This document shows positions 24,929 through 51,538 of a stretch of 64,000 bases of DNA, piece by piece. A program made the position numbers and the translations under genes. Each line of letters begins with the position of its first letter. Within the stretch, counting starts at the first letter, position 1. This DNA is from Neorhodopirellula pilleata. Its GTDB lineage: Bacteria; Planctomycetota; Planctomycetia; Pirellulales; Pirellulaceae. Under the pieces are notes generated by a model. That model was not told where the DNA came from, made no database searches, and saw only the letters and a list, made by a program, of their open reading frames with translations. The stretch is taken from assembly GCF_007859915.1 (NCBI RefSeq), contig NZ_SJPM01000001.1, forward strand, positions 1,457,086 to 1,521,085. Reading direction: 5' to 3'.

Positions 24929-27900
24929 CCGCCGTCAGTTGCAAGGTTTCCTCGAACAAGATCCGTCGGCGGAAGGCGGCGAGATCCAATCGCACGTCGA
25001 ACAATGCGATCAATGTCAGGCCGAACTTGAAGTCTTAGCTGAGGCGGATTTCGACTGGGAAGAAGCCACCGAACTGCTGAGGCGGGTGCCGCTCTTTGCG
25101 ACTGATTCGCCCAGCGCGAAAACCTCGACGAATGACAGCCCGCCAATCCTTCAGCCCACCGATCATCCTGGGTCGCTAGGACGCTTCGCTCGTTACGAAA
25201 TCATGGAGATTCTTGGTCGCGGCGGGATGGGGATCGTGATGCGAGGGTACGACACGTCGCTTGATCGCCACTGTGCGGTGAAAGTACTGGCCCCGGAATT
25301 GGCAACCAGTGCCGCAGCGAGAAAGCGATTCTCTCGTGAAGCAAAGAGTGCCGCCGCCGTCGTACACTGTCACGTCGTGCCGATTCAGAACGTCGATGAG
25401 CATGATGGCCTTCCATATCTCGTCATGCCGGTCGTCGAAGGCAAAAGTCTGCAACAAAGGGTCGAATCCGACGGTCCTTTGTCGGTCATCGAAACCGTTC
25501 GCATCGCGATGCAAGTCGCCGAAGGCTTAGCCGCCGCACACTCGCAAGGTCTCGTTCACCGCGACATCAAACCCGCCAACATCTTGCTGAAAAACGGCGT
25601 TGAACGAGTCCAGATCACCGACTTTGGATTGGCTCGTGCAGTCGACGATGCCAGCATGACGCGCAGCGGCGTGATCGCCGGCACTCCACAATACATGTCG
25701 CCCGAACAAGCTCACGGCGACGAAATCGACCATCGCAGTGATCTGTTTTCGCTCGGCAGCGTGATGTACTTCATGCTCACCGGCCGCAGTCCGTTCCGCG
25801 CCGAAACCACGATGGGCGTACTCAATCGAATCGGCAACGACGAACCCCGTCGTCTGCAAGCGATCAACCCCGAGATTCCCGTCTGGCTGGCTGGCATCGT
25901 GACGAAGCTGCTTTCCAAATCGCCCGCAGATCGATTCGGCACCGCGCAGGAAACTGCTGAACTACTCGAAGACTGCCTCGCCCACGTCCAGCAGCCAACC
26001 ACAACGCCACTCCCCGAATCCATCGCTGCTTTGGCACCTCAAAGAAACCGCCGTCCACCTATCGGCAAGTATATTGTTGCAGCAGTGTTCGGGTTCTCGC
26101 TGATCTTCGCGGGCGTTCTGGTCATCCTAGAAATGAACAAAGGCACGCTGACGATTGAGTCCGAGGCGGATGATATTCCGATTCGGATCATGCAGGACGA
26201 CGACGTGATCGAAAGATTGACGGTGTCCAAGTCCGGAAAGGCCACTCGAATTGCGGCTGGGAACTACGTGGTCGAACTTGATGGTCACTTTGAGGGTCTG
26301 GAGGTCAGCAACGGGACCATCGCGTTGAACCGCGGCGGGGATACTACTGTGAAGATTACGCACCAACAGCGCGCAAGCCAGAAATCGACTGTACAAGACA
26401 AAGCACTGATCGGCTCCTGGCGAGTGATGGACGGGCCGGAGGAAGTCGAACCCGGATACGAGTTGGATTGTGACAAGATGATGACGTTCGACGAAGGTAG
26501 GGGGAGTTACCAAACTGAAGATGAGACTCCCATCCAGTTCAGCTATCGCGTGCTACCAGAAAAGATGATTCGACTCACCGTGATCAATGGAGCCTCAACT
26601 GGGAGCGCTAGAGAGTCGTTGTACCGATATAACTTGCCAGACCCGAACCATCTTGATCTTCAGCCTTATGTCGAAGGGAAGCCGACACCCGAAAAAATGA
26701 CTCTAGTGCGCATGGGCGAAGCAGAGGAATTATCGACGCATGCCTCACTGACTGTTCCGGTCGACACCAGCGATACCTATGGCTGGGCAGACCACGACTT
26801 CGTGGACTACCACAGGATGCTGATTGAGAGCGAGAGTTTTCTTGGCTCTCTGACCTGGCCCAGTGAGATTGACCTGATCCCAACTGGGAAAGACAAATCG
26901 ACCGAGTGGCTGAAGAAGCATTTGGATGTAAAAACGCTGAAGACCAACGTAATCGAACTTGGCATGCATGGCCACGTTCGCAACAAGGTTCAACGCGACC
27001 AGATTTTGGCGAAAGTCGCCGAGGCGTATCGAAACAGGATTGCGGATACCAAAACAGATGCAGGGCAGGAAACGATCCAGCGTCTCAGGAAGTCGCATAG
27101 TGATGTCGTTAAAGAACGCGATCTAGCGACAGCGAATCATTCCCGCCTGCTAAAGGATGCACCCACCGACACAGGCGAGCTCGCAGCATCGCTGGATGAA
27201 CTCGTGCGGCTCAATGAATTGCTCACCGTGCTGTGCTATCGGCTGATAGAATACGGAGTTCCCGCCATCGCCGGCTCCACCGAGTCGAGTCTTCGGGGAA
27301 AAGCAATAGGTGCGAAAGCTGGAAAGGGTGCCAGCGACCGTGATCTTGACCGACTGCTGGCCGACGCGATTCGCCAGTTTAACGATCATCAAAGAGTCGA
27401 CCCCGTGGGAAGTAAGCAACCACTGTTGACGGACGATGAAGTGATCGCGGCGGTACGCGACCTGTCCCACGAGTTGGAAAGTCTTGACATCTCGGAAAGC
27501 GACTATCAGGTTCTTCGTGATGCGATTCAGCGCGGAAAAATCCCGAATCACTGGACGATTGAATCAAGCAACCGGTTCAAGCTAAGCGATGGTCGAATTG
27601 GGGAACGTTGGGGGGGCCAGCTTACAATGCGGCGTGATGATCATTCTCAGCGCACTTACGTCTTCCGAAGTCGATACGTAGGCATCGAGCCAGAAACGCC
27701 AGCTTCGACACAGCCATTGCTTGCTGGTCACGTCTCGCTGACCGATTGGATCGCAAAGGTGAATGAAGCGGAGCCAGCGATCTATTCGCCATTGCCTGAC
27801 TTGCCCGTGACCGAACAGGAAATCATTGCAGCCCTTTCCGACCTGGTTGATAAAAAGCAATCAGCCAATTTTGAATCGGAGCGAAGAACACTCCAGCAAA

Positions 27901-30503
27901 TGATCGACACACGCTCTTTTCCGCCAGACGCAGAATTGACATTGTTCAGACCTCAGCGTCATCGAACAAACGGGTCACGTTGGTCAAATAGGGATGGATT
28001 TGAGTCCAGCAAGTGGACGTTGCATTTGAGATACCCTTACATCAAGGGCGATGAAAAAATCATTACTGCTGACATCATTGGACAACGAACCATCACTTCT
28101 ATGCCGGTGGACCGCGTCGCCGACGAAGAAATCCAGTGGGGGCCTCCCGCAGCCGATGGACTCCAGTTTGGCGTTGCCGTCGAAGTGAGTGATAGTGACG
28201 ACATCAGCGATTCGTTTTCGGGTGTGGTCGCGCTCTACACGCCCCATTTCTATCTTCGTAACCCAAGGGTAGAGGAAACGGAATTTGTTCAATTGCCTCG
28301 TCTCTATCAGCACTACGACGTAGACGCTCGCACCGCAACCGGCGAGCAACTACCAACGAAACAGCGACAGGGTTACTACGGTATTTCGACCATAAACCTT
28401 CCAGATCAATTGAATCGCAGATGGCGAATTTACAAACCTGCCTCGTCCTCTCTTGTTGGGAACTATACACCAACGTTCTTCGAGGAATCATTGTCACTGG
28501 AACCGCCCGATGGGCGATTCTTCGACACCTTTCCAGCCGTTGCCGTGAATGCGCCGCTCAACACACCGCTCCGTGTCAGGATCTCCATTCCGCATCCTTT
28601 GCTTAGCGATTCAACCGATATGATGTCTGGAGAAATCAGACTGCCAGGGTTGTCAGTCGCCAGTCCTCTTGCCGCAGCGAGTGAGGAAAATGTCGGCAAG
28701 AATGAGAAAAAGGGGTCGGAAACTATGGTCACGGAGGTCGATGGCGAGTGGCACATGGTTGAGGCTTGCGATACGAAAGGTGTCTCGCTGGAGGTGCGGC
28801 CTCACAACCGAACTTACCAAGGCGACCGCTGCACTGCGGCCTGGGCAGGTGGTGGCCACGAATGTCGAATTCAGGTGAACCCCGACGCGAAAACCATTTG
28901 GTCCTTTATCAAGGACGAGGATCATTCCTTCTTTGTCGATGACTACGAACTACAGGGAGGTAAGCTGATCCTTACCAACGATACGGGTACGGGTAAACGC
29001 CGCGCGGTCTATGAACGTGGCCATGTTCGTATTCCCGATGTCGTTCCGGAAGTCGCCGAGCAGCAGGTTGCGCGGTGGCGATCCGCTGTCGTCGAAATCA
29101 TGGTCACCGGAACTCAGGAAGGGACGGTCGATGAACCGCATTCCGTTGGTTTTGGAGTCGTCGTGAGAAAAGATGGCACGTTGGTTTTGCACATCAACAG
29201 CAAATGGGGTGATATCGACAAGGAGCAGGCCAACATCAACGCCAAGTTCGACGACGGATCCCAGGTTCCGCTCGAACTAGTTGCAGGGAATTCCAGCGTT
29301 CTAGTTCTACGCCCAAAAGATCCCGTTGCGCTCAATCACCACTTCCCATTTTCTCTTGGCCCGACCGAGGTCGATGATGAGGTCTATGTTGGTCAGCTAA
29401 CGCTCCCATCGACGGATGCCGACGCCACACACAACCTCGTCGCCACAAAAGTCCAGCTAGCACAAGCAGATCGCCGCATCGCAACCATGAACTCTCCAGT
29501 CTGGCAACTGAAAGCCGTTCAAAGAATCCCAAACTCACACTGCTTGCCCGTCCTCTCCGGCGATGGCGAACTACTAGCCATCACGATGACCAACACCGGA
29601 GGTCTCCTGCTGGCGATTCCAACAGCTCGTTTGATCGAGATGTTTCCTGAACCATTCGCTCCTGCAGAAACCGAAAAGGTCTCGGCAGTGGATCAGCGTG
29701 AGCGAGATTCCAACAACAAAGAGAGCCCACAGTTGCCGCACACAATTTCCGTATCCGAAGATGCGGACAAAAAGATTCCAGTCGATTTGAGTTCTAAGGG
29801 CGTAGATGTTCCGCCGATGGCATTTGACACGCTCGAAGATTTCCTGAAACCCGGCAACGACCTGTTCGATAAGCAGATGTTGGAGATTGATAAACGATTG
29901 GCAAAGGCTGAGAAGGGAAGTGCCGAGCACGCGTTGTTCACAACCAAGAAGAAGCAATTAAAAGAGCAGTGGGATTTGAGTGTCGCTCAAGTCAAGGGCA
30001 TGGTTGCCGCAGCGGAAGCTGGGAACCCCGTACAACTTGCACCGATTGTGATTCCCAACAACCCATCACCGTGGCGTGCGCCGTTGCCTGACCCACTTCA
30101 AAAACACGACGAAGAGATTGCCCGGGTGCTGGCGGGAACGTGGGACATCAAGCGCGACACTGGCCTGGAAGAGGAACTTGATGGCACCGAAGTTGCCATC
30201 GAAGAGTTGACAGCAATGTTCAGCAAGAACATGTTGATCGTCCACCTTAAGATTGGAGATGAACAACATGAGATGCACTACATGTATCGCATCTCCGGTG
30301 ACAAGATCGACCTCTGGGGATACGATCCTATCAATAAGCAGACTGATCGCGATCACCCAATGCTGGGCTCTTACTCGCTAGAGAACGATACTCTCCGCAT
30401 CTGCCATCATGATCAGGAAATGGAAGTCGGCCAGCCACAGGCCCGTCCTCCCGTTCACCCCGGCAAAGGCTTGGTGTACTGGGAACTGCAGCGTCGAAAT
30501 TGA
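24906..30503 (+). CDS. Kinase 1: zinc anti-sigma motif, Ser/Thr kinase, membrane segment, giant ectodomain
   Basis: From ATG 24906 (chosen because MIARFHYD matches the kinase 2 start) the product is 1865 residues. An H-x3-C-x2-C zinc motif (HVEQCDQC, about 30-37) precedes a complete Hanks-type kinase domain (about 96-360: GRGGMGIV loop, AVKVLA Lys, HRDIKPAN, DFG, GTPQYMSPEQ). One membrane segment follows (about 389-409). The outer region holds a TIGR03067-like domain (about 498-590), two copies of a repeat module (about 840-930 and 965-1060), a WG-x5-GLQFGV beta domain, another TIGR03067-like domain (1276-1361), a trypsin-like fold without the GNSGG nucleophile (about 1388-1578), and a final TIGR03067-like domain (1735-1863). 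It probably holds sigma 2 inactive until the ectodomain senses a signal; phosphorylation targets are unknown. Confidence 0.92.
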   Translation: MIARFHYDRRQLQGFLEQDPSAEGGEIQSHVEQCDQCQAELEVLAEADFDWEEATELLRRVPLFATDSPSAKTSTNDSPPILQPTDHPGSLGRFARYEIMEILGRGGMGIVMRGYDTSLDRHCAVKVLAPELATSAAARKRFSREAKSAAAVVHCHVVPIQNVDEHDGLPYLVMPVVEGKSLQQRVESDGPLSVIETVRIAMQVAEGLAAAHSQGLVHRDIKPANILLKNGVERVQITDFGLARAVDDASMTRSGVIAGTPQYMSPEQAHGDEIDHRSDLFSLGSVMYFMLTGRSPFRAETTMGVLNRIGNDEPRRLQAINPEIPVWLAGIVTKLLSKSPADRFGTAQETAELLEDCLAHVQQPTTTPLPESIAALAPQRNRRPPIGKYIVAAVFGFSLIFAGVLVILEMNKGTLTIESEADDIPIRIMQDDDVIERLTVSKSGKATRIAAGNYVVELDGHFEGLEVSNGTIALNRGGDTTVKITHQQRASQKSTVQDKALIGSWRVMDGPEEVEPGYELDCDKMMTFDEGRGSYQTEDETPIQFSYRVLPEKMIRLTVINGASTGSARESLYRYNLPDPNHLDLQPYVEGKPTPEKMTLVRMGEAEELSTHASLTVPVDTSDTYGWADHDFVDYHRMLIESESFLGSLTWPSEIDLIPTGKDKSTEWLKKHLDVKTLKTNVIELGMHGHVRNKVQRDQILAKVAEAYRNRIADTKTDAGQETIQRLRKSHSDVVKERDLATANHSRLLKDAPTDTGELAASLDELVRLNELLTVLCYRLIEYGVPAIAGSTESSLRGKAIGAKAGKGASDRDLDRLLADAIRQFNDHQRVDPVGSKQPLLTDDEVIAAVRDLSHELESLDISESDYQVLRDAIQRGKIPNHWTIESSNRFKLSDGRIGERWGGQLTMRRDDHSQRTYVFRSRYVGIEPETPASTQPLLAGHVSLTDWIAKVNEAEPAIYSPLPDLPVTEQEIIAALSDLVDKKQSANFESERRTLQQMIDTRSFPPDAELTLFRPQRHRTNGSRWSNRDGFESSKWTLHLRYPYIKGDEKIITADIIGQRTITSMPVDRVADEEIQWGPPAADGLQFGVAVEVSDSDDISDSFSGVVALYTPHFYLRNPRVEETEFVQLPRLYQHYDVDARTATGEQLPTKQRQGYYGISTINLPDQLNRRWRIYKPASSSLVGNYTPTFFEESLSLEPPDGRFFDTFPAVAVNAPLNTPLRVRISIPHPLLSDSTDMMSGEIRLPGLSVASPLAAASEENVGKNEKKGSETMVTEVDGEWHMVEACDTKGVSLEVRPHNRTYQGDRCTAAWAGGGHECRIQVNPDAKTIWSFIKDEDHSFFVDDYELQGGKLILTNDTGTGKRRAVYERGHVRIPDVVPEVAEQQVARWRSAVVEIMVTGTQEGTVDEPHSVGFGVVVRKDGTLVLHINSKWGDIDKEQANINAKFDDGSQVPLELVAGNSSVLVLRPKDPVALNHHFPFSLGPTEVDDEVYVGQLTLPSTDADATHNLVATKVQLAQADRRIATMNSPVWQLKAVQRIPNSHCLPVLSGDGELLAITMTNTGGLLLAIPTARLIEMFPEPFAPAETEKVSAVDQRERDSNNKESPQLPHTISVSEDADKKIPVDLSSKGVDVPPMAFDTLEDFLKPGNDLFDKQMLEIDKRLAKAEKGSAEHALFTTKKKQLKEQWDLSVAQVKGMVAAAEAGNPVQLAPIVIPNNPSPWRAPLPDPLQKHDEEIARVLAGTWDIKRDTGLEEELDGTEVAIEELTAMFSKNMLIVHLKIGDEQHEMHYMYRISGDKIDLWGYDPINKQTDRDHPMLGSYSLENDTLRICHHDQEMEVGQPQARPPVHPGKGLVYWELQRRN

Positions 30504-31848: not shown

Positions 31849-31888
31849 CTACGCATCTTTGTGTGATCTGTAGGTAGGAGATTTGATT

Positions 31889-32491
31889 TTGCAGGGTCCA
31901 GAAACACGAGCGTCGCTGATTGCCAGCCTCAATGACCCGGCTTCGGAGGAAGCTTGGTATGAGTTTGCGGCTGTCTATCGCCCGCTCGTTATTCGGGTCG
32001 CTCGAGCAAAGGGACTGCAGCATGCCGATGCGGATGATCTGGCCCAAGACGTGCTGGCAGCCGTCGGGAATGCGATTGGATCCTTCACAACGACCGGCGA
32101 AGGCTCATTTCGGCGTTGGCTTTATCAAATCACCCGCAATTTGGTTGTGAATCAATTGACGCGGGGGCCGTTTTCGGGTCAGCGTGGGCCGATCGGAAGC
32201 GGCAACAGCGACGTGCAAAAGTTTCTGAGTCAGGCTCCGGCACCCGGCGACCAGACCGCCACCTTGTTTCAACTCGAATACCAGCGTACTCGATTTCAAC
32301 AAGCCGCTACGAAGGTGAAAGATCAGTTCAGCGAATCGACTTGGCAATGCTTCTGGCTGACTTCCGTAGAAAATCAGTCAGCCGAACAAGTCGCGTCCTC
32401 GATAGGCAAGACTGCTGGCGCGGTTCGCGTGGCGCGGTGTCGCGTGCTGGCAAAGATTCGCGAAGAAACTCAAACCGATACTAATGAGTAG
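31889..32491 (+). CDS. ECF sigma factor 3 (paired with kinase 2)
   Basis: The product is 200 residues starting at TTG 31889 (MQGPETRASL); AGGAG lies about eight bases upstream, better spaced than for the alternative TTG at 31883. Region 2 has SEEAWYEFAAVYRPLVIRVARAKGLQHADADDLAQDVLAAV, then GSFRRWLYQITRNLVVNQL. Region 4 has VKDQFSESTWQCFWLTSVENQSAEQVASSIGKTAGAVRVARCRVLAKI, in segments between about 130 and 195. It is clearly a paralogue of sigma 2, sharing the QGPETR start and the VRVARCRV recognition helix. Kinase 2 begins nine bases after its stop codon. Similar recognition helices suggest sigma 2 and sigma 3 may read overlapping promoters. Confidence 0.92.
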   Translation: MQGPETRASLIASLNDPASEEAWYEFAAVYRPLVIRVARAKGLQHADADDLAQDVLAAVGNAIGSFTTTGEGSFRRWLYQITRNLVVNQLTRGPFSGQRGPIGSGNSDVQKFLSQAPAPGDQTATLFQLEYQRTRFQQAATKVKDQFSESTWQCFWLTSVENQSAEQVASSIGKTAGAVRVARCRVLAKIREETQTDTNE

Positions 32492-32500: not shown

Positions 32501-35500
32501 ATGATCGCAAGATTTCATTACGACGACCAATCGCTGATGCGGCTGCTTCACGATAATCCTGACGACGACGCAAGCGACATGCAGAAACATGTCGAAAGCT
32601 GTGACGCATGCCAATCAAAATTGGAAACGCTTTCCAGTGGTGGCTTGAGCTGGGATGCAGTCAACGAGTTGATGCAGCAGGACGATTTGTCACCTGCCAC
32701 GGAACGAAGCGAGCCGCGGAGTGGCATCGCCGAAGACGTGGAGGGATCGCGATCTTCCGCAGCCACATTTCTACAACCAACCGACTATGTCGACTCGCTG
32801 GGTCGTTTCGCACGCTTCGAGATCATGGAGATACTCGGTCGCGGCGGGATGGGGATTGTAATGCGAGGATATGACACGGCGCTCGATCGTCACTGCGCGG
32901 TGAAGGTTCTTGCGCCTGAATTAGCAACGAGCGCCGCAGCGAGAAAACGATTTTCTCGTGAAGCCAAGAGCGCGGCGGCGGTCGTCCACCCTCACGTCGT
33001 GCCGATTCAAACCGTGGATGAGCATGACGGCCTGCCGTATCTCGTCATGCCGGTTGTGGAGGGAAAAAGTCTGCAACAACGTGTCGAATCCGACGGTCCT
33101 TTGTCGGTCATCGAAACCGTTCGCATCGCGATGCAAGTCGCCGAAGGCTTAGCCGCCGCACACTCGCAAGGTCTCGTTCACCGCGACATCAAGCCAGCCA
33201 ACATCTTGCTGGAAAACGGAGTTGAACGAGTCCAGATCACCGATTTCGGCTTGGCTCGCGCGGTCGACGACGCCAGCATGACACGCAGCGGCGTGATCGC
33301 CGGCACTCCACAATACATGTCGCCCGAACAAGCTCACGGCGACGAAATCGACCACCGCAGCGATCTGTTTTCGCTCGGCAGCTTGATGTACTTCATGCTC
33401 ACCGGCCACAGTCCGTTTCGAGCCGAAACAACGATGGGCGTGCTCAATCGAATCGGCAACGACGAACCACGTCGGCTGCAAGCGATCAAACCCGAGATTC
33501 CCGTCTGGCTGTCAGGCATCGTGACGAAGCTGCTCTCCAAATCGCCCGCAGATCGATTCGAGACCGCGCAGGAAGTTGCTGAACTACTCGAAGACTGCCT
33601 CGCTCACGTCCAGCAGCCGACGAACACGCCGCTGCCTGAATCAGTTATCCCCGCGTCGGCTCCACAGCAAATCGGCCGCCCGCCGATCGGCAAGTTCATT
33701 GCTGCCGGAGCATTTGCGTTCTCATTGATCTTCGCTGGCGTGTTGATGGTGCTGGAGTTGAACAAGGGCACGCTGACAATCGAATCCATTGTGGACGACG
33801 TTCCGATCCGAATCATGGAGGGTGACGATGTCGTCAGGAAGCTCGTGATCGGTCGCGAGGGCGGCAAGACGCGACTGCATGCTGGGAAATACACGCTCGA
33901 AATCGACGACCGTGACACGAGCTATGCGATCACCGATGGAGTTGTGATGGTCAAGCGTGGCGAAACCGTGATCGCGAAAGTCACTTACGTTGAAAAAGAC
34001 GATCGCAAATATGGACCATTGGCGCAGCAACGACTGTCCAGTGCAGTACTGGAATTCAACAACTTGTATTCCAAGGATGGGAAGGGCAGGCCTCAGCAAC
34101 CGCTTACTCAAGGAGAAATCACCGCGTGTCTGTCTTGGAAAAGAGGGAACGGCGAATTATCCGATGAGGTATCTGCCGCCATTCGCACAATGCTTTCGAC
34201 TAGAGAAAGGCTCGTGCCGCCAAGCTGGGAGATCACGGGCGGACTAGTACGTCATCCGAGTGAGCACGGGATCGTTCAGACATGGGAAGTGAATCTGGAA
34301 ACCAATGGACTTTCCAAACCTATCTCCATTCGCAGGTCAGCAATCGCCCCGCCAGATTCGATGTTAAAACCCAACGAACATGATGGAAACAATGTGGGGA
34401 CAACACCGATTTCCGACATGGTTGATTCCTTCAACAAGTCGTGGAAAGAACGCGACGATTTCGAGAGCCTTACCCATCGTTTGCTCACTCACGGCCTCGA
34501 TCTGCCACCGCTGACGATCGATGAAGTCCTGGCTGCGATCGCACTATGGCAATCCAGCCGAAAGACAGCGGACGTCGATGATGCAATCGTCCAGCAATTG
34601 AAACGCATCACGGAAACCCACCAATTGCCAACTGATACAAAATTCGAGTTGGTGCCATCGATTAAAGATGACATTGATCAGTGGTACGACATTTCGTTGA
34701 TCCGCATGCATGTCCCACAGATCGACGTGCCGGGATCAACCTACCCAGTGACGATTCGCCAGCAGTTCATTGAAACAGATGACAACAACCTCTCCGCCAC
34801 GCATTGGGGTCACGCGGGCAGCAACGGCATTCAGGCTGGCTTCCGATTGCTTCCACCTCAGCAATCTTACCAACACGACCAGCTAGTCGAAGTCGAGTTC
34901 CTTTATCGAAGCGTGACGAGCAAAGAGATTTCGGCGAAATTGCCGACTGACTTTCGCTACCAAAGAGTTCGGATGGGAACGGAGGTCAAATTCGCGTCGA
35001 CGATTGACGTTCAAAAGCAGAGCGGAAATGGATTCACCACTGCCAATCTCGGCGGAGAGCCGACCATCGCTGGGAGACTGCGAATGCAGTTGTGTTTAGA
35101 TAAGGCAGAAGAACGAAAGGAAGGCGTCAGCTTGATGGCGGTAGTCGAACCTGGAAAAAGCTATCAACTCCAGTTCGTGGTTCCCAATCCCGGTGTCGAC
35201 GCCGCAGGCGAGCCTCTCGAAACCAAAAGATCGAATTACTTCAGCACTCCGCTTTTGAAGCCGAAACAACAGCAACCGCTGTTTACGGGGCACTGGTATC
35301 AACATTGGGGGCGATCAATTCCTGGACATCAATTCCCAGACCAATCGACACCCGATCCCGATTACATTGACCCGTTCATGATTGGCATGTCGCTGGGGAA
35401 AGCCGACGCGAGCCAGATTCCTGGTTACTTTGCCGGCGGACTCAAGGTCACGAAGGTCGCTCCGCACAGTCCAGCAGAAGCGGCTGGCATCGAAGTGGGT

Positions 35501-35785
35501 GATGTTCTGCTGTCATGGTCAGGCCACAAGATCTATGGCGACGATGCGAGTGCGAACTTTCTGAAATACAACCTACCGAACAGGGAACTGCGTGAGCTTC
35601 AGGAAAAGATGAACAAGCTCGGAAGATGGATGGGATCAGGCAACATCAAGTTTGTCATGCTGGATCACCGCTCCGGTGAAGTGATCGACATCGCGCCGTG
35701 GTACGGTGCGTTGGCGGGTGGCGGTCCCAACAAGGCTGAAGTCATCAGACGTTTACAAGAGCGAAAACGCCTTCGAGATCAGTGA
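32501..35785 (+). CDS. Kinase 2: zinc anti-sigma motif, Ser/Thr kinase, membrane segment, PDZ ectodomain
   Basis: The 1094-residue product starts MIARFHYDDQSLMRLL and carries H-x3-C-x2-C (HVESCDAC, about 31-38). The kinase domain (about 105-367) is very similar to kinase 1, with GRGGMGIV, AVKVLA, HRDIKPAN, DFG and the closing LLEDCLAHVQQPT. A membrane segment (about 400-422) is followed by a short beta unit (GTLTIESIVDDVPIRIM...), two copies of the repeat module (about 534-620 and 670-755), a WG-x5-G-I-Q-AGF beta domain (about 766-930) and a PDZ domain near the end (about 963-1065, GGLKVTKVAPHSPAEAAGIEVGDVLLSW). PDZ domains bind peptide C-termini, so misfolded or cleaved envelope proteins are a plausible signal. 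It presumably restrains sigma 3. Confidence 0.92.
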   Translation: MIARFHYDDQSLMRLLHDNPDDDASDMQKHVESCDACQSKLETLSSGGLSWDAVNELMQQDDLSPATERSEPRSGIAEDVEGSRSSAATFLQPTDYVDSLGRFARFEIMEILGRGGMGIVMRGYDTALDRHCAVKVLAPELATSAAARKRFSREAKSAAAVVHPHVVPIQTVDEHDGLPYLVMPVVEGKSLQQRVESDGPLSVIETVRIAMQVAEGLAAAHSQGLVHRDIKPANILLENGVERVQITDFGLARAVDDASMTRSGVIAGTPQYMSPEQAHGDEIDHRSDLFSLGSLMYFMLTGHSPFRAETTMGVLNRIGNDEPRRLQAIKPEIPVWLSGIVTKLLSKSPADRFETAQEVAELLEDCLAHVQQPTNTPLPESVIPASAPQQIGRPPIGKFIAAGAFAFSLIFAGVLMVLELNKGTLTIESIVDDVPIRIMEGDDVVRKLVIGREGGKTRLHAGKYTLEIDDRDTSYAITDGVVMVKRGETVIAKVTYVEKDDRKYGPLAQQRLSSAVLEFNNLYSKDGKGRPQQPLTQGEITACLSWKRGNGELSDEVSAAIRTMLSTRERLVPPSWEITGGLVRHPSEHGIVQTWEVNLETNGLSKPISIRRSAIAPPDSMLKPNEHDGNNVGTTPISDMVDSFNKSWKERDDFESLTHRLLTHGLDLPPLTIDEVLAAIALWQSSRKTADVDDAIVQQLKRITETHQLPTDTKFELVPSIKDDIDQWYDISLIRMHVPQIDVPGSTYPVTIRQQFIETDDNNLSATHWGHAGSNGIQAGFRLLPPQQSYQHDQLVEVEFLYRSVTSKEISAKLPTDFRYQRVRMGTEVKFASTIDVQKQSGNGFTTANLGGEPTIAGRLRMQLCLDKAEERKEGVSLMAVVEPGKSYQLQFVVPNPGVDAAGEPLETKRSNYFSTPLLKPKQQQPLFTGHWYQHWGRSIPGHQFPDQSTPDPDYIDPFMIGMSLGKADASQIPGYFAGGLKVTKVAPHSPAEAAGIEVGDVLLSWSGHKIYGDDASANFLKYNLPNRELRELQEKMNKLGRWMGSGNIKFVMLDHRSGEVIDIAPWYGALAGGGPNKAEVIRRLQERKRLRDQ

Positions 35786-36052: not shown

Positions 36053-36550
36053 GTGAGCGACGACTGGAAAACGATTGTGCGAGAACAGGGGACTGGCGTT
36101 TATCGGATCGCCTGGCGGATTCTCGGTAATGCCGATGACGCAGACGAAACCGTGCAGGATGTGTTTCTACAGGCCCATCAGTACAAGTCGCAAAACGACG
36201 TCGACAATGTTGTGGGATTGCTGAAACGACTCGCGGTTTGTCGTTCGCTGGACCGATTGCGCCGACGACGCGCTGAGGTTTGTTTGGATGACGTAACGGT
36301 CTTTGATCGTGAATCAGGTCCAGAGGATCAAGCCGTTGGCAAGGAACTCGAGTCGATGTTGCGCGACGCTGTTGGGCAATTACCGGGGCGAGAGGCGGAG
36401 GTGTTTTGCCTGCGTTATTTCGACGAACTCACGAATCAGCAAATCGCGGACGCTCTTAACATGACCACCGCCGCGGTCGCTACGGCGATCTACAAGGCTC
36501 GCACAAAACTCGCTGCCACATTGGCTGACCTCAACGAAGGAGTTTCCTGA
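36053..36550 (+). CDS. ECF sigma factor 4 (paired with single-pass anti-sigma-like protein)
   Basis: The product is 165 residues starting at GTG 36053. Region 2 is RIAWRILGNADDADETVQDVFLQAHQYKSQ with a LLKRLAVCRSLDRLRRRR basic end (about 18-75). Region 4 is LPGREAEVFCLRYFDELTNQQIADALNMTTAAVATAIYKARTKLAATL (about 110-158). It belongs to a different ECF subgroup from sigma 2, 3, 5 and 6, being shorter and lacking the GLQHADAED core. Its TGA overlaps the ATG of the next gene by one base (TGATG), a strong sign of translational coupling. Confidence 0.92.
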   Translation: MSDDWKTIVREQGTGVYRIAWRILGNADDADETVQDVFLQAHQYKSQNDVDNVVGLLKRLAVCRSLDRLRRRRAEVCLDDVTVFDRESGPEDQAVGKELESMLRDAVGQLPGREAEVFCLRYFDELTNQQIADALNMTTAAVATAIYKARTKLAATLADLNEGVS

Positions 36551-42537: not shown

Positions 42538-43137
42538 GTGAGCGAATTCCCTGAAACACGTGACAGCCTGCTGGTGCAGGTTCGAGACCCCGGAAATCGG
42601 GATGCGTGGGAGCGGTTCGCCTCAATTTATCGGCCCGTCATCGTGCGAATCGCTGTGTCGCGCGGATTGCAACACGCGGACGCGGAGGATTTATCACAGC
42701 AGGTGTTGATGGCGGTCGCGGGGGCCGTCGGTGATTGGGAACAACGTGACGAGTCGATCAAGTTTCGGCATTGGCTCAGCCGTGTCACGAAGAACGCGAT
42801 TCTGAATGCCCTGATGCGGACGCCCAAGGATCAAGCCGTGGGCGGGTCGTCGATCGAGAATCTCTTGCAGGAAATCGTGGATCCCGATGGAGCCACGACG
42901 GAGCTGATTGAAACCGAGTATCGCCGCGAACTCTACCAGCGAGCCGCAAAAACCGTACGCGTTGAATTTCGCCCCGAATCATGGCAAGCATTTGAAATGT
43001 CGGTTTCGGGCAACGTGTCGATCGAAGAAGTCGCCAAAGCGTTTGGCAAAAGCATCGGCGCAATCTATACCGCTCGCAGCCGAATCATGTTTCGACTCAG
43101 CGAACTGATCTCAGAACTTGAGGAACAGAATCAATGA
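42538..43137 (+). CDS. ECF sigma factor 5 (paired with kinase 3)
   Basis: From GTG 42538 (VSEFPETRDSLL), with AGGAGA about nine bases upstream, the product is 199 residues. The open frame extends further upstream but the ribosome binding sequence and match with the paralogues fix the start here. Region 2 has NRDAWERFASIYRPVIVRIAVSRGLQHADAEDLSQQVLMAVAGAV and FRHWLSRVTKNAILNAL. Region 4 has VEFRPESWQAFEMSVSGNVSIEEVAKAFGKSIGAIYTARSRIMFRL. It belongs to the same planctomycete subgroup as sigma 2, 3 and 6. The stop overlaps the kinase 3 start as ATGA, typical of coupled translation. Confidence 0.92.
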   Translation: MSEFPETRDSLLVQVRDPGNRDAWERFASIYRPVIVRIAVSRGLQHADAEDLSQQVLMAVAGAVGDWEQRDESIKFRHWLSRVTKNAILNALMRTPKDQAVGGSSIENLLQEIVDPDGATTELIETEYRRELYQRAAKTVRVEFRPESWQAFEMSVSGNVSIEEVAKAFGKSIGAIYTARSRIMFRLSELISELEEQNQ

Positions 43138-45047
43138 CCAACACACAATCACTGTGCATCACGCCCGACTATTTCCTCGCGTTCCTACGCGGGCGGCTCA
43201 GCGATCGTGAAGAAAGCGAATTGCAATGTCACCTGGATACGTGCGAGTCGTGTCGACTGCGATTGGAGACCACAGCCGCCGACGCGCCTGCTTGGAAAGA
43301 AGCTGAGCGATTCTTGGGAGCAACTTCCGAGCGACATTCCGATGACGATTTGTCGGTTGATAGCGTGAGTCGGACGTCACTACAGATCGAACAAGTACTC
43401 CAGTCGCTCGCCCCCACCGACGACCCACAATCGCTCGGTCGCATTGGCGGCTATGAAGTCACGGGGGTGATTGGCGCGGGCGGGATGGGCGTGGTGCTGA
43501 AAGCTCATGAGCGGGCGCTCGATCGCATTGTGGCCATCAAAGTGATGGCTCCCCATCTCGCCAGCAGCGGGTCGGCTCGCAAGCGGTTTGCTCGGGAAGC
43601 CAAAGCGGCCGCAGCGGTCATCCACCCCAATGTGATCGCCATTCACGGCGTATCGAACGAAGGTTCCCTTCCGTATCTGGTGATGCCATTCGTGGGCGGC
43701 GATTCGTTGCAAAAGCGACTGGATCATGATGGTCCACTAACGACGACCGAAGTGTTGCGAGTCGGCAGTCAGATCGCCGCTGGTCTGGCAGCAGCCCACG
43801 GCCAAGGTCTCGTTCACCGTGACATCAAACCCGCCAACATCTTGTTGGACAACGGGGTCGAACGTGTCTCAATCACTGATTTTGGACTCGCCCGCGCCGT
43901 CGACGACGCAGCGATGACTCGCACCGGTGTCATTGCTGGCACCCCGCAGTTCATGTCCCCCGAACAATCGCGAGGCGAATCCATCGACCACCGCAGCGAT
44001 CTATTCAGCCTTGGCAGCGTGCTGTACGCATTGTGTACCGGACGCGCTCCCTTCCGAGCGGAAACAAGTTACGGAGTCCTGCGCCGCATCACCGATGACG
44101 AGCCAAAACCGATTCGTGAAATCAACGCTGACATTCCCGAGTGGTTGTGCGCGATCATTAGCAAACTGATGTCAAAGCTGGCCGAAGACCGCCACGCATC
44201 AGCGGACGAAGTCGCCGAACTACTCGAAGACTGCCTCGCCCACGTTCAGCAACCAACGACCGTTCCTTTGCCGAAAGCGATGGAGATGAATTCGATGCAA
44301 AATCGCATGAACTTAGTTCCGAGCCAAAACAAGCCTGCGTTTCTTTCAGTGGGCCTGGCGTTGGCAATTATCCTGGCGATCTTTATGGCGTTTAGGGTAA
44401 TTGATGGGCGATTCAGTCCGTTACCGGTCGGTAACTCAGTTAGCAACAACGTGGAGAGCAAGGTGCGTCGGACAAGTCCCACCGGCGCACATATTGGTAC
44501 CAACACTGCTTCTGTTGTGGTGGGGCATGATGAAATCGACGTGCACTATGTCGTTTTCTATGCTGGGAACTTTCAAACTTCATCCAGTGGAACGCATAAT
44601 ACGCAAGGAATGTCTTGGGTAGATCGTGGCAGCATTCGGCTAGGGAAAGATCGTTCGTTCGGATACTATCGCGAGTCTACAGATCCTTTTGATTTAGCGA
44701 TCAACGGTGAGGAATTCGACCTTCGGCAAGGTCGGGTGCTTGAGCTGACTGATGAAGGAAACGTACAGCAAATCAAGCTGTTTCCTTCGTTACAGGATGC
44801 GTCGCAACCCGCCCGCGTTGCGGAACTCATTGACCAGTCGCGTCTAAGCAATGAAGAACCGATTACCAACGACAAACTGCGCGAGCAACTTGCGGTAGTC
44901 GAATCTCAATTGGCTGATTTGCTAAAAACACACGCGCCGACACATCCACTGGCAGTGAAAATTTCGCGTTCTATTATTGAACTGAAGAATGAAGTGGGCG
45001 AGGAGTCCCCCAAAACATCTACTCAGCTTCGCCCGTTTGACAACTGA
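43134..45047 (+). CDS. Kinase 3: zinc anti-sigma motif, Ser/Thr kinase, membrane segment, short ectodomain
   Basis: At 637 residues this is the smallest of the four kinases. The zinc motif H-x3-C-x2-C is HLDTCESC (about 33-40). The kinase domain (about 104-368) is complete: GAGGMGVV loop, AIKVMA Lys, HRDIKPANI, DFG, GTPQFMSPEQ, closing LLEDCLAHVQQPT. A membrane segment lies at about 402-424 (FLSVGLALAIILAIFMAF). The outer part is only about 210 residues: a beta-rich stretch (DVHYVVFYAGNFQTSS..., IRLGKDRSFGYYRES) followed by a helical Gln/Leu/Glu segment (DKLREQLAVVESQLADLLKTHAP). It lacks the repeat module, PDZ or TIGR03067-like units of the other kinases. Pairing with sigma 5 and shared architecture argue for the same switch logic with a different input. 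Confidence 0.92.
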   Translation: MTNTQSLCITPDYFLAFLRGRLSDREESELQCHLDTCESCRLRLETTAADAPAWKEAERFLGATSERHSDDDLSVDSVSRTSLQIEQVLQSLAPTDDPQSLGRIGGYEVTGVIGAGGMGVVLKAHERALDRIVAIKVMAPHLASSGSARKRFAREAKAAAAVIHPNVIAIHGVSNEGSLPYLVMPFVGGDSLQKRLDHDGPLTTTEVLRVGSQIAAGLAAAHGQGLVHRDIKPANILLDNGVERVSITDFGLARAVDDAAMTRTGVIAGTPQFMSPEQSRGESIDHRSDLFSLGSVLYALCTGRAPFRAETSYGVLRRITDDEPKPIREINADIPEWLCAIISKLMSKLAEDRHASADEVAELLEDCLAHVQQPTTVPLPKAMEMNSMQNRMNLVPSQNKPAFLSVGLALAIILAIFMAFRVIDGRFSPLPVGNSVSNNVESKVRRTSPTGAHIGTNTASVVVGHDEIDVHYVVFYAGNFQTSSSGTHNTQGMSWVDRGSIRLGKDRSFGYYRESTDPFDLAINGEEFDLRQGRVLELTDEGNVQQIKLFPSLQDASQPARVAELIDQSRLSNEEPITNDKLREQLAVVESQLADLLKTHAPTHPLAVKISRSIIELKNEVGEESPKTSTQLRPFDN

Positions 45048-45095
45048 CGCGAATCGTCATTCCGCTCCAGCAATTTCGATCTAAAAGGACTTTCG

Positions 45096-45953: not shown

Positions 45954-46574
45954 ATGCGAGTGATGACACCAACACCTGAAACGAGCGAGAGTCTGCTGAT
46001 TCGCGTCCGCGATCCTGAGGATCGTGCGGCTTGGGATCGGTTTGATGCGATCTATCGTCCGGTGGTCTATCGGGTTGCTCGGCGAGCGGGCTGGCAGCAC
46101 TGCGACGCCGAAGATCTGACGCAGCGAGTGATGGTATCGGTTGCCAAAGCGGTGCCGGAGTGGCGAAAGGATCACAGCAAAGGTGGCTTCCGAAGTTGGT
46201 TGTACGCGATCGCTCGAAACGCATTGATTAGCACGTTGCGAAAGTCGGGACGTGAGCCAGCGGGCGGCGGCAGTGAGTTTTTACTGCAATCGCAAACAAT
46301 CGAAGGACCGGCAAGCGAACTGGAGCGTTTGATCGACCAGGAACATCATCGCAGCCTGCTGCGTCGAGCCGCCGAACTGGTTCGCGATGAATTCAAGGAC
46401 ACGTCTTGGCAAGCGTTCTGGTTGACCACGCTCGGCGAACTCTCGGTTCCCGAGGCAGCCGAAAAATTGCAGCTCTCGACCGGCGCGGTCTACGCGGCTC
46501 GCAGTCGGATTCTACGTCGACTGCAGGAAGTGGCTGGGCAATACGATCACGAAGAAAAGGCGACGCAATCATGA
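45954..46574 (+). CDS. ECF sigma factor 6 (paired with kinase 4)
   Basis: The product is 206 residues from ATG 45954; a second ATG at 45963 is possible. Upstream AGAGG is about seven bases from the first ATG. Region 2 has DRAAWDRFDAIYRPVVYRVARRAGWQHCDAEDLTQRVMVSVAKAV and GFRSWLYAIARNALISTL. Region 4 has VRDEFKDTSWQAFWLTTLGELSVPEAAEKLQLSTGAVYAARSRILRRL. It has TPETSESLLIRVRDPEDR at the start, parallel to PETR in sigma 2, 3 and 5. The end overlaps kinase 4 as ATGA. It is the last of the six sigma factors in the array. Confidence 0.92.
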   Translation: MRVMTPTPETSESLLIRVRDPEDRAAWDRFDAIYRPVVYRVARRAGWQHCDAEDLTQRVMVSVAKAVPEWRKDHSKGGFRSWLYAIARNALISTLRKSGREPAGGGSEFLLQSQTIEGPASELERLIDQEHHRSLLRRAAELVRDEFKDTSWQAFWLTTLGELSVPEAAEKLQLSTGAVYAARSRILRRLQEVAGQYDHEEKATQS

Positions 46575-49500
46575 ATCGACAACAGCTTCAAACGCAATGC
46601 AACCCCGACGCATTGGAACAGTTTCTCCAAGGGACGCTTGGCGGCAGCGAAGCCGAAGTGCTGGAACTGCACTTGACGCAGTGCGAGTCGTGTGCCGAGC
46701 AAATCCAACTTGCCGCCCAACGCGATGTGTCATGGCAGGAAGCTCAAAACCTGCTGGCAGCCGACGAGTACGACAGCCCTGAACAGGTCTCTGCAATCAC
46801 GTCGCTGCTATCAGGCGAACAGGATTCCATCACCAAGCAACAAACGGCCGACGTGCTCTCTCGCGAGATACGTGGCTGGCTCGATCCAACCGACGATCCG
46901 CAGTCGTTAGGTCGATTTGCGGGATACGAGATTGTCGGTATCGTCGGCCATGGTGGCATGGGGATCGTGCTAAAGGGTTTTGAGTCGTCGCTCAACCGTT
47001 ACGTCGCTATCAAAGTTCTAGCGCCTCGTTTGGCAACGAACGGTAATGCACGCAAACGATTCGCTCGCGAAGCCCAAGCCGCAGCGGCGGTTCGGCACGA
47101 CAACGTGATCGCGATCCATCGTGTCGACGACTGGCACGGCTTGCCATTCTTGGTGATGCCCTACGTCGGCGGAATCTCATTGCAAAAACGTATCGATACC
47201 GAAGGCTCGTTGAACATCGAGCAGACGCTACGAGTCGGCGTACAAATCGCATCGGGACTCGCTGCCGCTCACGCCCAGGGCCTAGTGCATCGCGACATCA
47301 AACCGGCGAACATTTTGTTGGAGCAGGGAGTCGAACGTGTTACCATCACCGACTTCGGCTTGGCTCGCGCAGCCGACGATGCTTCAGTGACTCGCACGGG
47401 AGTGATCGCAGGCACGCCGCAGTACATGTCACCCGAACAAGCCGACGCTCGGCAGATCGACGCCCGCAGCGATTTGTTCAGTCTCGGTAGCGTGCTTTAT
47501 GCGATGGCTACTGGCCGCCCACCTTTTCGCGGCGACCACAGCTTTGAAGTGCTCAAACGCATCGTCAACGAGCCTGCACGCCCCATGCGAGAGATCGAAG
47601 CGTCAGTTCCCGAATGGTTCGAGCAACTGGTCGCTCGCCTGCACTGCAAATTCCCCAACGACCGTTTTGATTCCGCCGAGCAAGTGGCCGATCTACTCGA
47701 AGACTGCCTCGCCCACGTCCAGCAACCAACCACAACCCCGCTCCCCGAAGCCGTCACGAATCCCGTAGCGGAAGTCGTCAAGAGTTTCGGCTCTCGCAGT
47801 GCAAACCCCGCATCCGAAAGTCTTGACGACTTCCGCTACCCACCGATCGGCAAACTGATTGCCGCTGCCGCCTTCGGATTCTCGCTGATCTTCGCAGGCG
47901 TGTTGATCGTGCTGGAATTGAACAAAGGCACGCTGACGATTGAAAGTAGCAGTGACCAGGAAGTCCCGATCCGCATCATGCGAGGCGACAAAGTTGTCCA
48001 GCAGTTGTCGGTCACTGAGGACGGCGTGACAACGCGATTGAAGGCCGGTAAATACATCATTGAGATTGTCCAGGGCATCGACGGCTACCAGCTCACAGGC
48101 AACCAAGTCACGCTGAACCGAGGCGAGAACTGGATTGCCAAAATTACGCAGTCGAGGGACGAGGCAAGCCCTCTGAAAAACAATGTTCCATTTGCGTCGC
48201 AAGCTGATGTCGAAACTCGAGAGGGATTGCTCGACGGTTCGTTCGTAACCATTCCTCTGAAGCTCGAGTGGCATCCAGAAGAAATGATGAAGCGTAATGT
48301 TGGACGTCGCTATCTGACTGTTCTAGCCGACGGAATCATAGCTCATGACACAGCATCAAACGCCATCGCGAAGGTTCAGTGGGGAATTGCCTACGACTGT
48401 CGTCTGGAGTCTTACGAAAAGGCGCCTGACGATGGGGCTGGATTTTGGAAGGCGCGGTTGTTCGTTCCCCGCAAAGCGATCTATTCGATCGGGGCGTTGT
48501 GGTACAAGGATACTATTCGCACGATGCGCATTGGTGATCGCCACACACCCGTTCCAGCACCCAGTCTGACGCAAGACGATCCGCAATCCGAAATAGAGGA
48601 AGCCATAGCAGACGGCCACAGCTTGCGATTGGTGAACGTCGAATTTGAAGCACAAGGCGAATCATCAGGTAGGGCTGCTGACAAAGGTGCCGCCCATCTA
48701 AAAAAGTCGCCTAACGTCGTCGTCGTGGGGGGGGACGAGCAGACCCAGAAAGCTGTCCAGAAACGCGTTTTGCAGCTGATTGAGGAAGTGACTCAGCAAT
48801 GGGGTGGTCCCCTGCAACAAAAGATTCGGGCGGGAGAGCATCCTCCGATCAAGATCGTCATACAGCTCCAGTCGACGAAGGGGCTTGGCACCATCGTTGG
48901 AGCCTCCACGATCGTCCATCATGGGACGCTTCCCGAATTGCTCGACACGCATCTCCCCACCTTGATCGTCCGCCTCGTTCTAAATCAACGCATCAACTTT
49001 GTCTTGCCCGAATGGTTGAGTAACGGTATTCGCACCGGCATGACGGAGCAGGACTCGGGAAATCAGTGGGCGACCTTGCGACGAGTTCGTGACACAAAGC
49101 AGTTGATGCCACTACAGGACCTACTGAAGCACTCAGTCGCTACCGTCGGGCCCAATACTCCGAGCGGCGCGAAGAAGCGTCAAGCTGACGAGAATTTCGT
49201 CGCTCAATCAACTGCCTTCTGCCAGTTTTTCGTCGATCTATGGGGAAACGAAGCGCTCGTCCATTTTGTGATCTCGTTGCAAGAGAGCGAAGTGGCTGCT
49301 TTAGAGCCTTTGGACATCGACTCGCTCACTGTGTTGGAGCGTAAGTTTCATTCGTGGATTCAGAAGAAAACGCTGGCCAAAGAAGCGGTGTCGAACACTG
49401 CTAACCCTCGAGGCGAATCCCAACGTAGCGAAAACGATGGAGCGATAGCCTCAAGCCTAGCACCGACGCTGGCGGAGGCGACGAAGCAGTTTAACGAGCA

Positions 49501-51538
49501 ATCGGCTGAGGATCGTCGAATACTTTTCGATCCGCCGATTCCAGATTTGACCGAGGCGGAATTGCGTGATGGGTTTCGTATCGCATCTCAAGAGTACGAT
49601 CAAGATGGCGAGCATGATATCGCGAAAGCACTCGCGAAGATCGCAGAAACGGGAAGGATGCCGGAGGGAGTAGGAAGCAATCTGGTTGCGTCTGGAACGG
49701 TATCGCGCGACGAAAACGGTGAAATCGAGAATCGACAAATCGTCCCTGGTTTAATCATTCAGCGTGACGCATCATCGCATCGTTTGGTGTTACTGAAATC
49801 ACTGTCGCTTCGTTATCGAAACGATGGAACATCCTCAACGAAATACGGCGATCAGGGCGGGCAGGTCAGCAAGAGCTTACAGAATGACATTCAAGGAAAC
49901 TGGATCGTCGAGTCACTCGTTGATGGATTCAAGCCCCATGACGATGAATTGCGACCGATGCGGATGAAGATCGACGGCGACCTCATGCTGGTCACTGTCA
50001 ATTCAGTAATCTGGGAAAGCCCAATCAGGTTGACTTGGCCAAAGGCTGGGGCGGATGTCCTGTCAGCGAACGCACCTCAGGCAATCGACCTGACGTTTGA
50101 CCCCAATGGCGAACCGAAAGGGAAGCCGGATCTTTATCAAGGAGTCATTCAGTGCGATGGTGATACGCTGACGATCTGTTTTGCAGAATCGTTTCGACCG
50201 AAACGTGTTATTCAAGGCTCAAACGTCTACTACCTGAAATGCCGCCGCGAAAAGGCGCGCAAGAATACCGATAGCGACGACAGTGCCGTTTTTCCAGACG
50301 GTTGGAAACCTGGCGAAAACCCTGACGCACTCGCTGCGATGAAGGGTTGGGTGGTCGCCTGGGATGTCCGAGCGGCTCAATCAATTGGGGGTGGGAAGCC
50401 AGGAGCCATCTTACGAATGTTTCCAGATGGACGCATTGCGGCTGTCTACGGTGTGAATGCGCCACTGGTAAAAACCCGAGTCTCGCCAAAACAAGTGGAG
50501 AAACTTGTCGAAGAATTGAAGCAGCGGGGAAGCAGGCGAGAGATCGACAAGTTGTTTCCAATTAAGAATAAACACCCAATGCTCGCGCAGGACTACGCTG
50601 CGCTGCAATCTAATCTGGAAACCACTGCCAAAGAGTTGAACATCGGAGATCCTCTGCCTTACTCACTTTGGGACCAAACGGGCAATCGAGTCACAGTGGT
50701 CGACGATGGCGAGTTGTATGACCTGATGAACATAGAGCCGCAACATCCTGAACGTGTCGACCCGGCGATACCAGCGGGGATCGCCGGCTTGTCAAAGGAC
50801 ATGCAGCGTCAACTCCTGGGGTTCGTTTATCTAGCCACTGTCGGCGGGAACGAGGCGTTGTCCGAATGTCTTTCGTTTGCCAGTGCAGAGTTACACGAGC
50901 AAGACGAAAACACTCCGATTCAGCTATCAATGTCACATGTCCATTGGTTATCGCGAACACGCACTGGCGTTGAAGCCATGTTTCACTTTACCGCTGACTC
51001 AACGAAACTGAGTTTTCCATCAGGCCAAATCCTGGTCAGTCGTGCCGAAGGCGGACGTTGGAAAGTCAAGAATGCCGAGTATTGGCGCGATGCCGAAACA
51101 TGCGAGCGATGGGGAGAAGACGTTGCAATGACGGAACTCGAAGGCGTTTGGCACCTGGAGTCTGCGGTTGATGCTGATGGCAAGGCACGCAAAATCACCC
51201 GGCCCGATCACTGGACGTTTCGTGGCAATCGACTGCACTTTGAGTTCGCAACAGCAGGCCACTTCGCGTGCGATGTGGAGGTCGATCCGACGGCAGGCAC
51301 GATCCGTTGGCTCCAGGACGGCAAGGACCGATTTAGCAAAGCGGACTACAAGTTGGAGGGAAACCGTTTGACGATCAACGAGCGTCCAACACAGAAAAAG
51401 ATTCTGCTGCGCGGACGGGCGGCGAAGACCCGGTCGGAGCAAACACAGCCCGAGAAACAAAGCTACGATGGGAAGTCTGCGACGGATCGTTCGGACAACG
51501 CCGCTCAAGCACCAAAGAGTGTACCGAGTACCAAATAA
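46571..51538 (+). CDS. Kinase 4: zinc anti-sigma motif, Ser/Thr kinase, membrane segment, peptidase-like ectodomain
   Basis: From ATG 46571 the product is 1655 residues; the longer frame from 46406 is excluded because it overlaps sigma 6. H-x3-C-x2-C is HLTQCESC (about 34-41). The kinase domain (about 116-383) has GHGGMGIV, AIKVLA, HRDIKPAN, DFG, GTPQYMSPEQ and the shared LLEDCLAHVQQPT. The membrane segment lies at about 430-450. Outside are a region of about 740-933 resembling a zincin-type peptidase (LPEWLSNGIRTGM) but with no HExxH helix, one repeat module (about 990-1087), a TIGR03067-like domain (about 1105-1230), an alpha/beta domain (about 1240-1370) and a final TIGR03067-like domain (about 1517-1615). 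It presumably controls sigma 6 and reads an envelope signal through a catalytically dead peptidase fold. Confidence 0.92.
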   Translation: MNRQQLQTQCNPDALEQFLQGTLGGSEAEVLELHLTQCESCAEQIQLAAQRDVSWQEAQNLLAADEYDSPEQVSAITSLLSGEQDSITKQQTADVLSREIRGWLDPTDDPQSLGRFAGYEIVGIVGHGGMGIVLKGFESSLNRYVAIKVLAPRLATNGNARKRFAREAQAAAAVRHDNVIAIHRVDDWHGLPFLVMPYVGGISLQKRIDTEGSLNIEQTLRVGVQIASGLAAAHAQGLVHRDIKPANILLEQGVERVTITDFGLARAADDASVTRTGVIAGTPQYMSPEQADARQIDARSDLFSLGSVLYAMATGRPPFRGDHSFEVLKRIVNEPARPMREIEASVPEWFEQLVARLHCKFPNDRFDSAEQVADLLEDCLAHVQQPTTTPLPEAVTNPVAEVVKSFGSRSANPASESLDDFRYPPIGKLIAAAAFGFSLIFAGVLIVLELNKGTLTIESSSDQEVPIRIMRGDKVVQQLSVTEDGVTTRLKAGKYIIEIVQGIDGYQLTGNQVTLNRGENWIAKITQSRDEASPLKNNVPFASQADVETREGLLDGSFVTIPLKLEWHPEEMMKRNVGRRYLTVLADGIIAHDTASNAIAKVQWGIAYDCRLESYEKAPDDGAGFWKARLFVPRKAIYSIGALWYKDTIRTMRIGDRHTPVPAPSLTQDDPQSEIEEAIADGHSLRLVNVEFEAQGESSGRAADKGAAHLKKSPNVVVVGGDEQTQKAVQKRVLQLIEEVTQQWGGPLQQKIRAGEHPPIKIVIQLQSTKGLGTIVGASTIVHHGTLPELLDTHLPTLIVRLVLNQRINFVLPEWLSNGIRTGMTEQDSGNQWATLRRVRDTKQLMPLQDLLKHSVATVGPNTPSGAKKRQADENFVAQSTAFCQFFVDLWGNEALVHFVISLQESEVAALEPLDIDSLTVLERKFHSWIQKKTLAKEAVSNTANPRGESQRSENDGAIASSLAPTLAEATKQFNEQSAEDRRILFDPPIPDLTEAELRDGFRIASQEYDQDGEHDIAKALAKIAETGRMPEGVGSNLVASGTVSRDENGEIENRQIVPGLIIQRDASSHRLVLLKSLSLRYRNDGTSSTKYGDQGGQVSKSLQNDIQGNWIVESLVDGFKPHDDELRPMRMKIDGDLMLVTVNSVIWESPIRLTWPKAGADVLSANAPQAIDLTFDPNGEPKGKPDLYQGVIQCDGDTLTICFAESFRPKRVIQGSNVYYLKCRREKARKNTDSDDSAVFPDGWKPGENPDALAAMKGWVVAWDVRAAQSIGGGKPGAILRMFPDGRIAAVYGVNAPLVKTRVSPKQVEKLVEELKQRGSRREIDKLFPIKNKHPMLAQDYAALQSNLETTAKELNIGDPLPYSLWDQTGNRVTVVDDGELYDLMNIEPQHPERVDPAIPAGIAGLSKDMQRQLLGFVYLATVGGNEALSECLSFASAELHEQDENTPIQLSMSHVHWLSRTRTGVEAMFHFTADSTKLSFPSGQILVSRAEGGRWKVKNAEYWRDAETCERWGEDVAMTELEGVWHLESAVDADGKARKITRPDHWTFRGNRLHFEFATAGHFACDVEVDPTAGTIRWLQDGKDRFSKADYKLEGNRLTINERPTQKKILLRGRAAKTRSEQTQPEKQSYDGKSATDRSDNAAQAPKSVPSTK

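Follow-up and report, generated by a model that had tools for sequence, protein, structure and literature searches.

The DNA analysed in this work is a window of 64,000 nucleotides (the whole stretch) from Neorhodopirellula pilleata (GCF_007859915.1, NZ_SJPM01000001.1:1,457,086-1,521,085, forward strand). Four kinase genes (K1, K2, K3, and K4), each with a Pkinase match in the Pfam scan, were identified in the window, and K1, K2, and K4 carry five copies of the repeat unit that is described here. Profile comparison shows these five copies to be homologous and to represent a single domain of about 111 residues. The kinase genes and the units are as follows.

24906..30503, + strand: kinase 1 (K1), open reading frame (ORF) with Pkinase match at 9.7e-46, start taken as the first ATG
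32501..35785, + strand: kinase 2 (K2), Pkinase match at 5.6e-46, PDZ_6 match at 1.2e-6 close to the C-terminus
43134-45047: kinase 3 (K3), Pkinase match
46571..51538, + strand: kinase 4 (K4), Pkinase match at 2e-46, TIGR03067 match of 45.9 bits (cut-off 40.15)
27351..27689, + strand: unit K1a, 1.2e-22, 79.2 bits
27732..28100, + strand: unit K1b, 5.5e-8, 32.1 bits, model positions 2-99 only
34028..34351, + strand: unit K2a, 1.4e-12, 46.9 bits, modelled by AlphaFold2 (AF2) as three helices then three strands
34403..34780, + strand: unit K2b, 1.5e-22, 79.0 bits
49463..49828, + strand: unit K4, the most divergent, 6.3e-4, 19.0 bits, model positions 2-72 only

The listed ORF for kinase 1 starts with TTG at 24897, ahead of the first ATG at 24906. 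The unit scores are those of a profile hidden Markov model (HMM) that was built from 141 units from outside the window and no window sequence, because circularity was to be avoided. This external-only HMM was searched against 351 window ORFs, and the E-values of the HMM searches presume a database size of 10000. Controls made from 2000 shuffled and 4 reversed ectodomains scored at most 5.6 bits. No unit was found by the external-only HMM in kinase 3.

The original prediction, which was made from the letters of the window, had proposed five repeat segments in K1, K2, and K4. All five are present at or near the proposed places and belong to one family by the external-only HMM (E-values from 1e-22 to 6e-4). 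Their proposed starts had to be moved, as the true starts lie 64-107 bases earlier, and the helix L..A[IV]..FN that opens each unit had been left out. The proposed opening motif LT-x2-E holds in four of the five units; K1b reads VTEQE, so T-x2-E is the form found in all five. The proposed closing strand, h-x-[LF]R-x-R/Y, does not hold for K1b, where LRYPYI is the W-strand. No counterpart of the near-invariant closing Arg is visible in K1b, and K4 has Lys in its place, according to alignments by eye with P0040 and L025 as guides.

The model is 111 residues long, and inserts lengthen K1b, K2b, and K4. N, T, E, and P are the invariant columns in the alignment of the five window units. Among 138 units that are less than 80% identical (taken from 178 aligned rows), the near-invariant positions are N10 (99%), T26 (99%), E29 (99%), and R106 (98%). 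The fold of the unit is predicted to be three helices then strands, which is the common order in the AF2 models of both kinase 2 units and the K4 unit (predicted local distance difference test score, pLDDT, of 84.2 for K4). One order of helices and strands was thus recovered in all three modelled units, where K2b has an additional inserted helix and a short strand compared with K2a. Structural likeness here refers to the order of predicted elements, and K1a and K1b are placed in the family by sequence homology. A K4-like relative was identified at the end of kinase L025.

The unit was also expected to match no named domain, and this was borne out, as no described family in Pfam or NCBIfam reaches its cut-off over the unit. 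In the window kinases, neither library lists anything over the units. The comparison of 48 aligned members with Pfam gave 17 weak families, each in at most two members, with a best E-value of 0.0037. In the NCBIfam search of the four kinases and seven small members, the unit is touched only by matches far under cut-off, and the few weak Pfam and NCBIfam matches that touch the unit in small relatives are likewise all far below cut-offs. Among PDB sequences, the best match to the profile had an E-value of 0.53. No description of the unit was found among the literature matches listed, which were titles and abstract beginnings with most subscription journals outside the coverage. Novel planctomycete domains were reportedly studied by Studholme et al. 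in 2004. On these comparisons, the unit is a real domain family that is absent from the libraries searched.

The family as collected here amounts to 108 proteins, or 103 after removal of near-copies, holding 170 units. These proteins were collected from three protein searches (41, 21, and 20 proteins, the last including 3 known), a contig scan (12 loci), and whole-genome searches. Left out of the 103 are the open-ended frame of L050 and 5 copies that are at least 97% identical, and L025 is also absent from this set because its unit falls just short of the threshold. The family counts are shaped by the queries, include fragments, and are no census. By motif or Pfam, the 103 proteins comprise 46 Ser/Thr kinases, 6 M56/BlaR1-type proteases, 2 fusions to extracytoplasmic function (ECF) sigma factors, 31 small proteins (up to 350 residues) with one unit and little else, and 18 others, some of them fragments (P0035 was put under the others by the motif rule, despite its Pfam kinase match). 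The six M56 proteins are L037, L049, L053, P0042, P0065, and P0074, in which the unit lies past the last hydrophobic segment. In P0079 and P0081, sigma regions 2 and 4 are followed by a hydrophobic stretch and then by the unit at the C-terminal part. The unit was also identified in proteins without a kinase that carry Secretin_N, thioredoxin, or CarboxypepD_reg domains. P0037, P0028, P0030, P0032, and P0033 have unit pairs and Secretin_N with no kinase domain listed, and P0037 also has thioredoxin domains. No common neighbour of the single-unit genes is apparent by eye at 12 loci, where no family search of neighbours was made.

Planctomycetes (Gimesia, Symmachiella, Pirellulaceae, Fuerstiella, and others) account for all sources with a taxon name except three entries. 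These are L044 ('uncultured bacterium') and the acidobacterial metagenome-assembled genomes (MAGs) L052 and L054, which group together on the tree and for which a MAG binning error is possible. The unit had been expected mainly in planctomycete kinases. The planctomycete part of that expectation stood and the kinase part did not, since 57 of the 103 proteins are without a kinase motif. These findings support the central claim of the original prediction and remove its restriction to kinases.

The usual block in the kinases is unit a, unit b, and a domain with a WG-x-GLQ motif (WG domain), as read by eye from the downstream sequences, with L021 as the exception. The a and b units cluster strongly on the tree of 113 units, where 2 and 4 a/b changes were counted versus shuffled-label means of 33.7 and 31.6. 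Neither the a nor the b units form a strict single clade, and the tree has few columns and unsettled bootstrap, with long branches for K4, L024, and P0037a. Two kinases have six unit copies in a pattern that was read as ababab. From this pattern and the strong clustering, it is likely that units a and b arose by one old duplication and that the pair then moved. The WG domain is represented in the window by two regions.

28128..28541 (end approximate), + strand: WG-x-GLQ-G region past unit K1b, from comparison by eye
34787..35224, + strand: WG-x-GLQAG domain of kinase 2, predicted to be mostly strands and immunoglobulin (Ig)-like

No Pfam match was seen over the WG domain. The WG domain also lies past the single unit in the M56 proteins L037 and L049.

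The units are predicted to lie outside the membrane on the basis of the hydropathy scan. The predicted transmembrane segments of the three kinases are as follows.

26073..26156, + strand: predicted transmembrane segment of kinase 1, hydropathy scan
33698..33754, + strand: predicted transmembrane segment of kinase 2, hydropathy scan
47855..47941, + strand: predicted transmembrane segment of kinase 4, hydropathy scan

The hydropathy scans gave a hydrophobic segment past the first unit in 0 of 92 and 0 of 17 entries (L050 is counted twice among the 92). Such a segment precedes the first unit in 72 of the 92 and 13 of the 17 entries, with no segment seen in the others, and P0050 begins with an RR-type leader, as read by eye.

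The kinases are linked to ECF sigma genes. Each of the four window kinases, the unit-less K3 included, has an ECF sigma gene immediately upstream, and the N-termini of K1, K2, and K4 carry HxxxCxxC, the signature motif of zinc-finger anti-sigma factors (ZAS).

24335..24928, + strand: ECF sigma gene of kinase 1, overlapping the kinase start, Sigma70_r2 2.9e-13, r4_2 1.5e-4
31883..32491, + strand: ECF sigma gene of kinase 2, Sigma70_r2 5.9e-12
45954..46574, + strand: ECF sigma gene of kinase 4, Sigma70_r2 7.8e-14, r4_2 3e-5
24993..25016, + strand: HxxxCxxC motif at the kinase 1 N-terminus (HVEQCDQC), from the translation
32588..32611, + strand: HxxxCxxC motif of kinase 2 (HVESCDAC), from the translation
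46670..46693, + strand: HxxxCxxC motif of kinase 4 (HLTQCESC), zf-HC2 5.2e-4, 20.5 bits, under the 22.2 cut-off

Of nine kinase loci elsewhere, eight have a relative of the window ECF genes directly upstream, either overlapping or at most 30 bases away (L025 is counted as a kinase by its HRDIKPAN motif). The ninth locus, L044, is a kinase of another type. Among the 46 unit-bearing kinases, 44 have HxxxCxxC within residues 1-110, and the motif is missing from L044 and the partial P0075. The zf-HC2 match (cut-off 22.2 bits) is above the cut-off in K3 (26.2) and not listed in K1 and K2; elsewhere, L036 (19.1) and L021 (18.1) are below the cut-off, as is K4. Eight kinase-linked ECFs were aligned, and six have DAED, one has DADD, and one has DALD.

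We consider the unit to be a predicted extracytoplasmic module that likely does the sensing in receptors with control over ECF sigma factors, with a probability of about 0.55, where sensing and ligand binding are the parts that we infer. One unit family is common to three output types (kinase, M56, and ECF sigma). A sensing role is likely because the unit is also joined to M56 and ECF sigma proteins and stands alone in small, likely secreted ones. A ligand would bind the a-b pair, or a single unit, outside the membrane, and the change would pass through the one transmembrane segment to the kinase side, which would free or modify the ECF sigma encoded next door. The N-terminal HxxxCxxC finger may hold the ECF sigma, and the simplest course would be its release upon activation. 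The equivalent input would trigger proteolysis in the M56 proteins and would act directly on sigma in the sigma fusions, which would bypass the kinase altogether.

Several findings weigh against this interpretation. In 20 of the 92 entries, among them fragments and 14 of the 34 small entries, the scan gave no hydrophobic segment whatsoever, which weakens the predicted membrane side for these 20. The units are far from the membrane in some kinases, such as L036 where the first unit is at residue 1208 of 1625, and other domains adjoining the distant units might do the sensing. The unit is patchily distributed. It was found in 7 of 60 relatives and in at least 8 of 392 genomes of the Planctomycetota, and each count takes in the genome of the window itself. 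The 8 of 392 is a lower bound because the phylum search scored part of each genome's candidates; the broader profile A5 and A1 gave the identical 8 genomes in that search. T26-x2-E29 may presumably be a mere helix-capping box. The ECFs also retain DAED or a near form, which leaves EcfP/ECF43-type activation unsupported by that motif. EcfP-type phosphorylation was for this reason demoted as the main mechanism, and phosphorylation at other sites of the ECFs is possible.

The unit may instead be a structural or dimerising spacer that separates other ectodomains or pairs receptors with no signal molecule bound. This explanation is unlikely, as 31 of the 103 proteins are small ones with one unit and little else, and the invariant polar N10, E29, and R106 seem beyond the needs of a spacer. 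It draws on the fact that the units have other domains as neighbours (in K2, PDZ and the Ig-like WG domain; in K4, TIGR03067), on the two kinases with six copies, and on the pair-plus-WG block that recurs whole in most kinases. It is rather doubtful that the unit is a very divergent known alpha+beta fold, of the cystatin/monellin or hot-dog thioesterase type, that was missed by sequence. A surface-binding module for anchoring to cell wall, polysaccharide, or protein, in receptors and secreted proteins alike, would agree with the unit in kinase-less proteins with Secretin_N, thioredoxin, or CarboxypepD_reg, and it has little probability in our estimation, as no carbohydrate- or wall-binding family was matched at cut-off. 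Chance similarity of unrelated ectodomain stretches would suit the 21-25% identity of K1a to the other four window units and is scarcely credible, since the external-only HMM compared with shuffles refutes it for K1a, K1b, K2a, and K2b, the common order of predicted elements and the a/b clustering on the tree speak against it, and K4, the weakest unit at 19 bits, has the same element order and a K4-like relative in L025.

A bolder extension of the sensing module can be stated, and we regard it as improbable. The unit would be a new-fold plug-in receptor head for kinase, protease, or sigma, the small single-unit proteins would be secreted partners that bind the a-b pair, and unit-unit contacts would thus serve planctomycetes as a cell-to-cell signal or as a readout of their own secretion.

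Like the PASTA kinases (PknB/PrkC-type), the kinases here are Ser/Thr kinases that cross the membrane once and bear repeated modules with a predicted place outside it. In NCBIfam, all four kinases score highest against NF033483, with the match confined to the kinase domain (290-305 bits, cut-off 450). However, no PASTA match was found in the window kinases (Pfam, E <= 1), and the unit is predicted to be three helices then strands and is also present on M56 and sigma proteins. The TIGR03067 planctomycete domain is likewise small and found in the same ectodomains, with two stretches in K4, but its best stretch in K4 (residues 1105-1210 of the 46571 ORF) lies past the unit (961-1086), which is unmatched. 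BlaR1 itself senses through a penicillin-binding domain. The six family members that join the unit to an M56 domain resemble BlaR1/MecR1 (Peptidase M56) but bear the new unit instead of, or besides, other domains.

The pairs of ECF and Ser/Thr kinase genes (EcfP-PknT and EcfK-PknS; ECF59, 61, 62, and 217) also have an ECF gene beside a transmembrane kinase gene. EcfP has STTA in place of DAED, and ECF59, 61, 62, and 217, with planctomycete examples, are grouped under phosphorylation control (PMC8999054). In contrast, the kinase-linked ECFs aligned here have DAED or a close variant, and most of the unit-bearing kinases have the HxxxCxxC motif. This combination of an anti-sigma-like motif and DAED-retaining ECFs makes a sigma-tether model testable against the predicted phosphorylation model.

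Planctomycetes have many receptor-like Ser/Thr kinases. A domain common to kinase, M56, and ECF-sigma receptors would give the three a single target for binding, and transcription is suggested as the output by the sigma fusions. The accessory domains in a survey of planctomycete receptor-like kinases were drawn from Pfam, and therefore the present module would be missed by it (PMC11032199).

Other features were identified around the kinases. K1, K2, and K4 have a common conserved stretch just past the membrane segment, NKGTLTIES...VPIRIM...AGKY or AGNY, which begins at about 26136 in K1, 33761 in K2, and 47921 in K4, covers about 80-90 residues in each, and is not seen in K3. A partial relative of kinase 2 is encoded on another contig of the genome of the window (ORF L018:8031-9242, G000:C28:14030-15241). 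This ORF matches kinase 2 residues 684-1094, from the second half of unit b onward, at 51% identity, and the sequence immediately ahead of it gave no match to a kinase or to unit a. Another ECF sigma gene, followed directly by a gene for a 589-residue protein with a hydrophobic stretch, occupies 36053-38319. The 589-residue protein has no Pfam match at E <= 1 and is possibly the anti-sigma partner of the adjoining ECF. Between kinases 2 and 3, at 38428-41616, lies a gene whose 1062-residue product matches Peptidase_S41 and Tricorn_C1.
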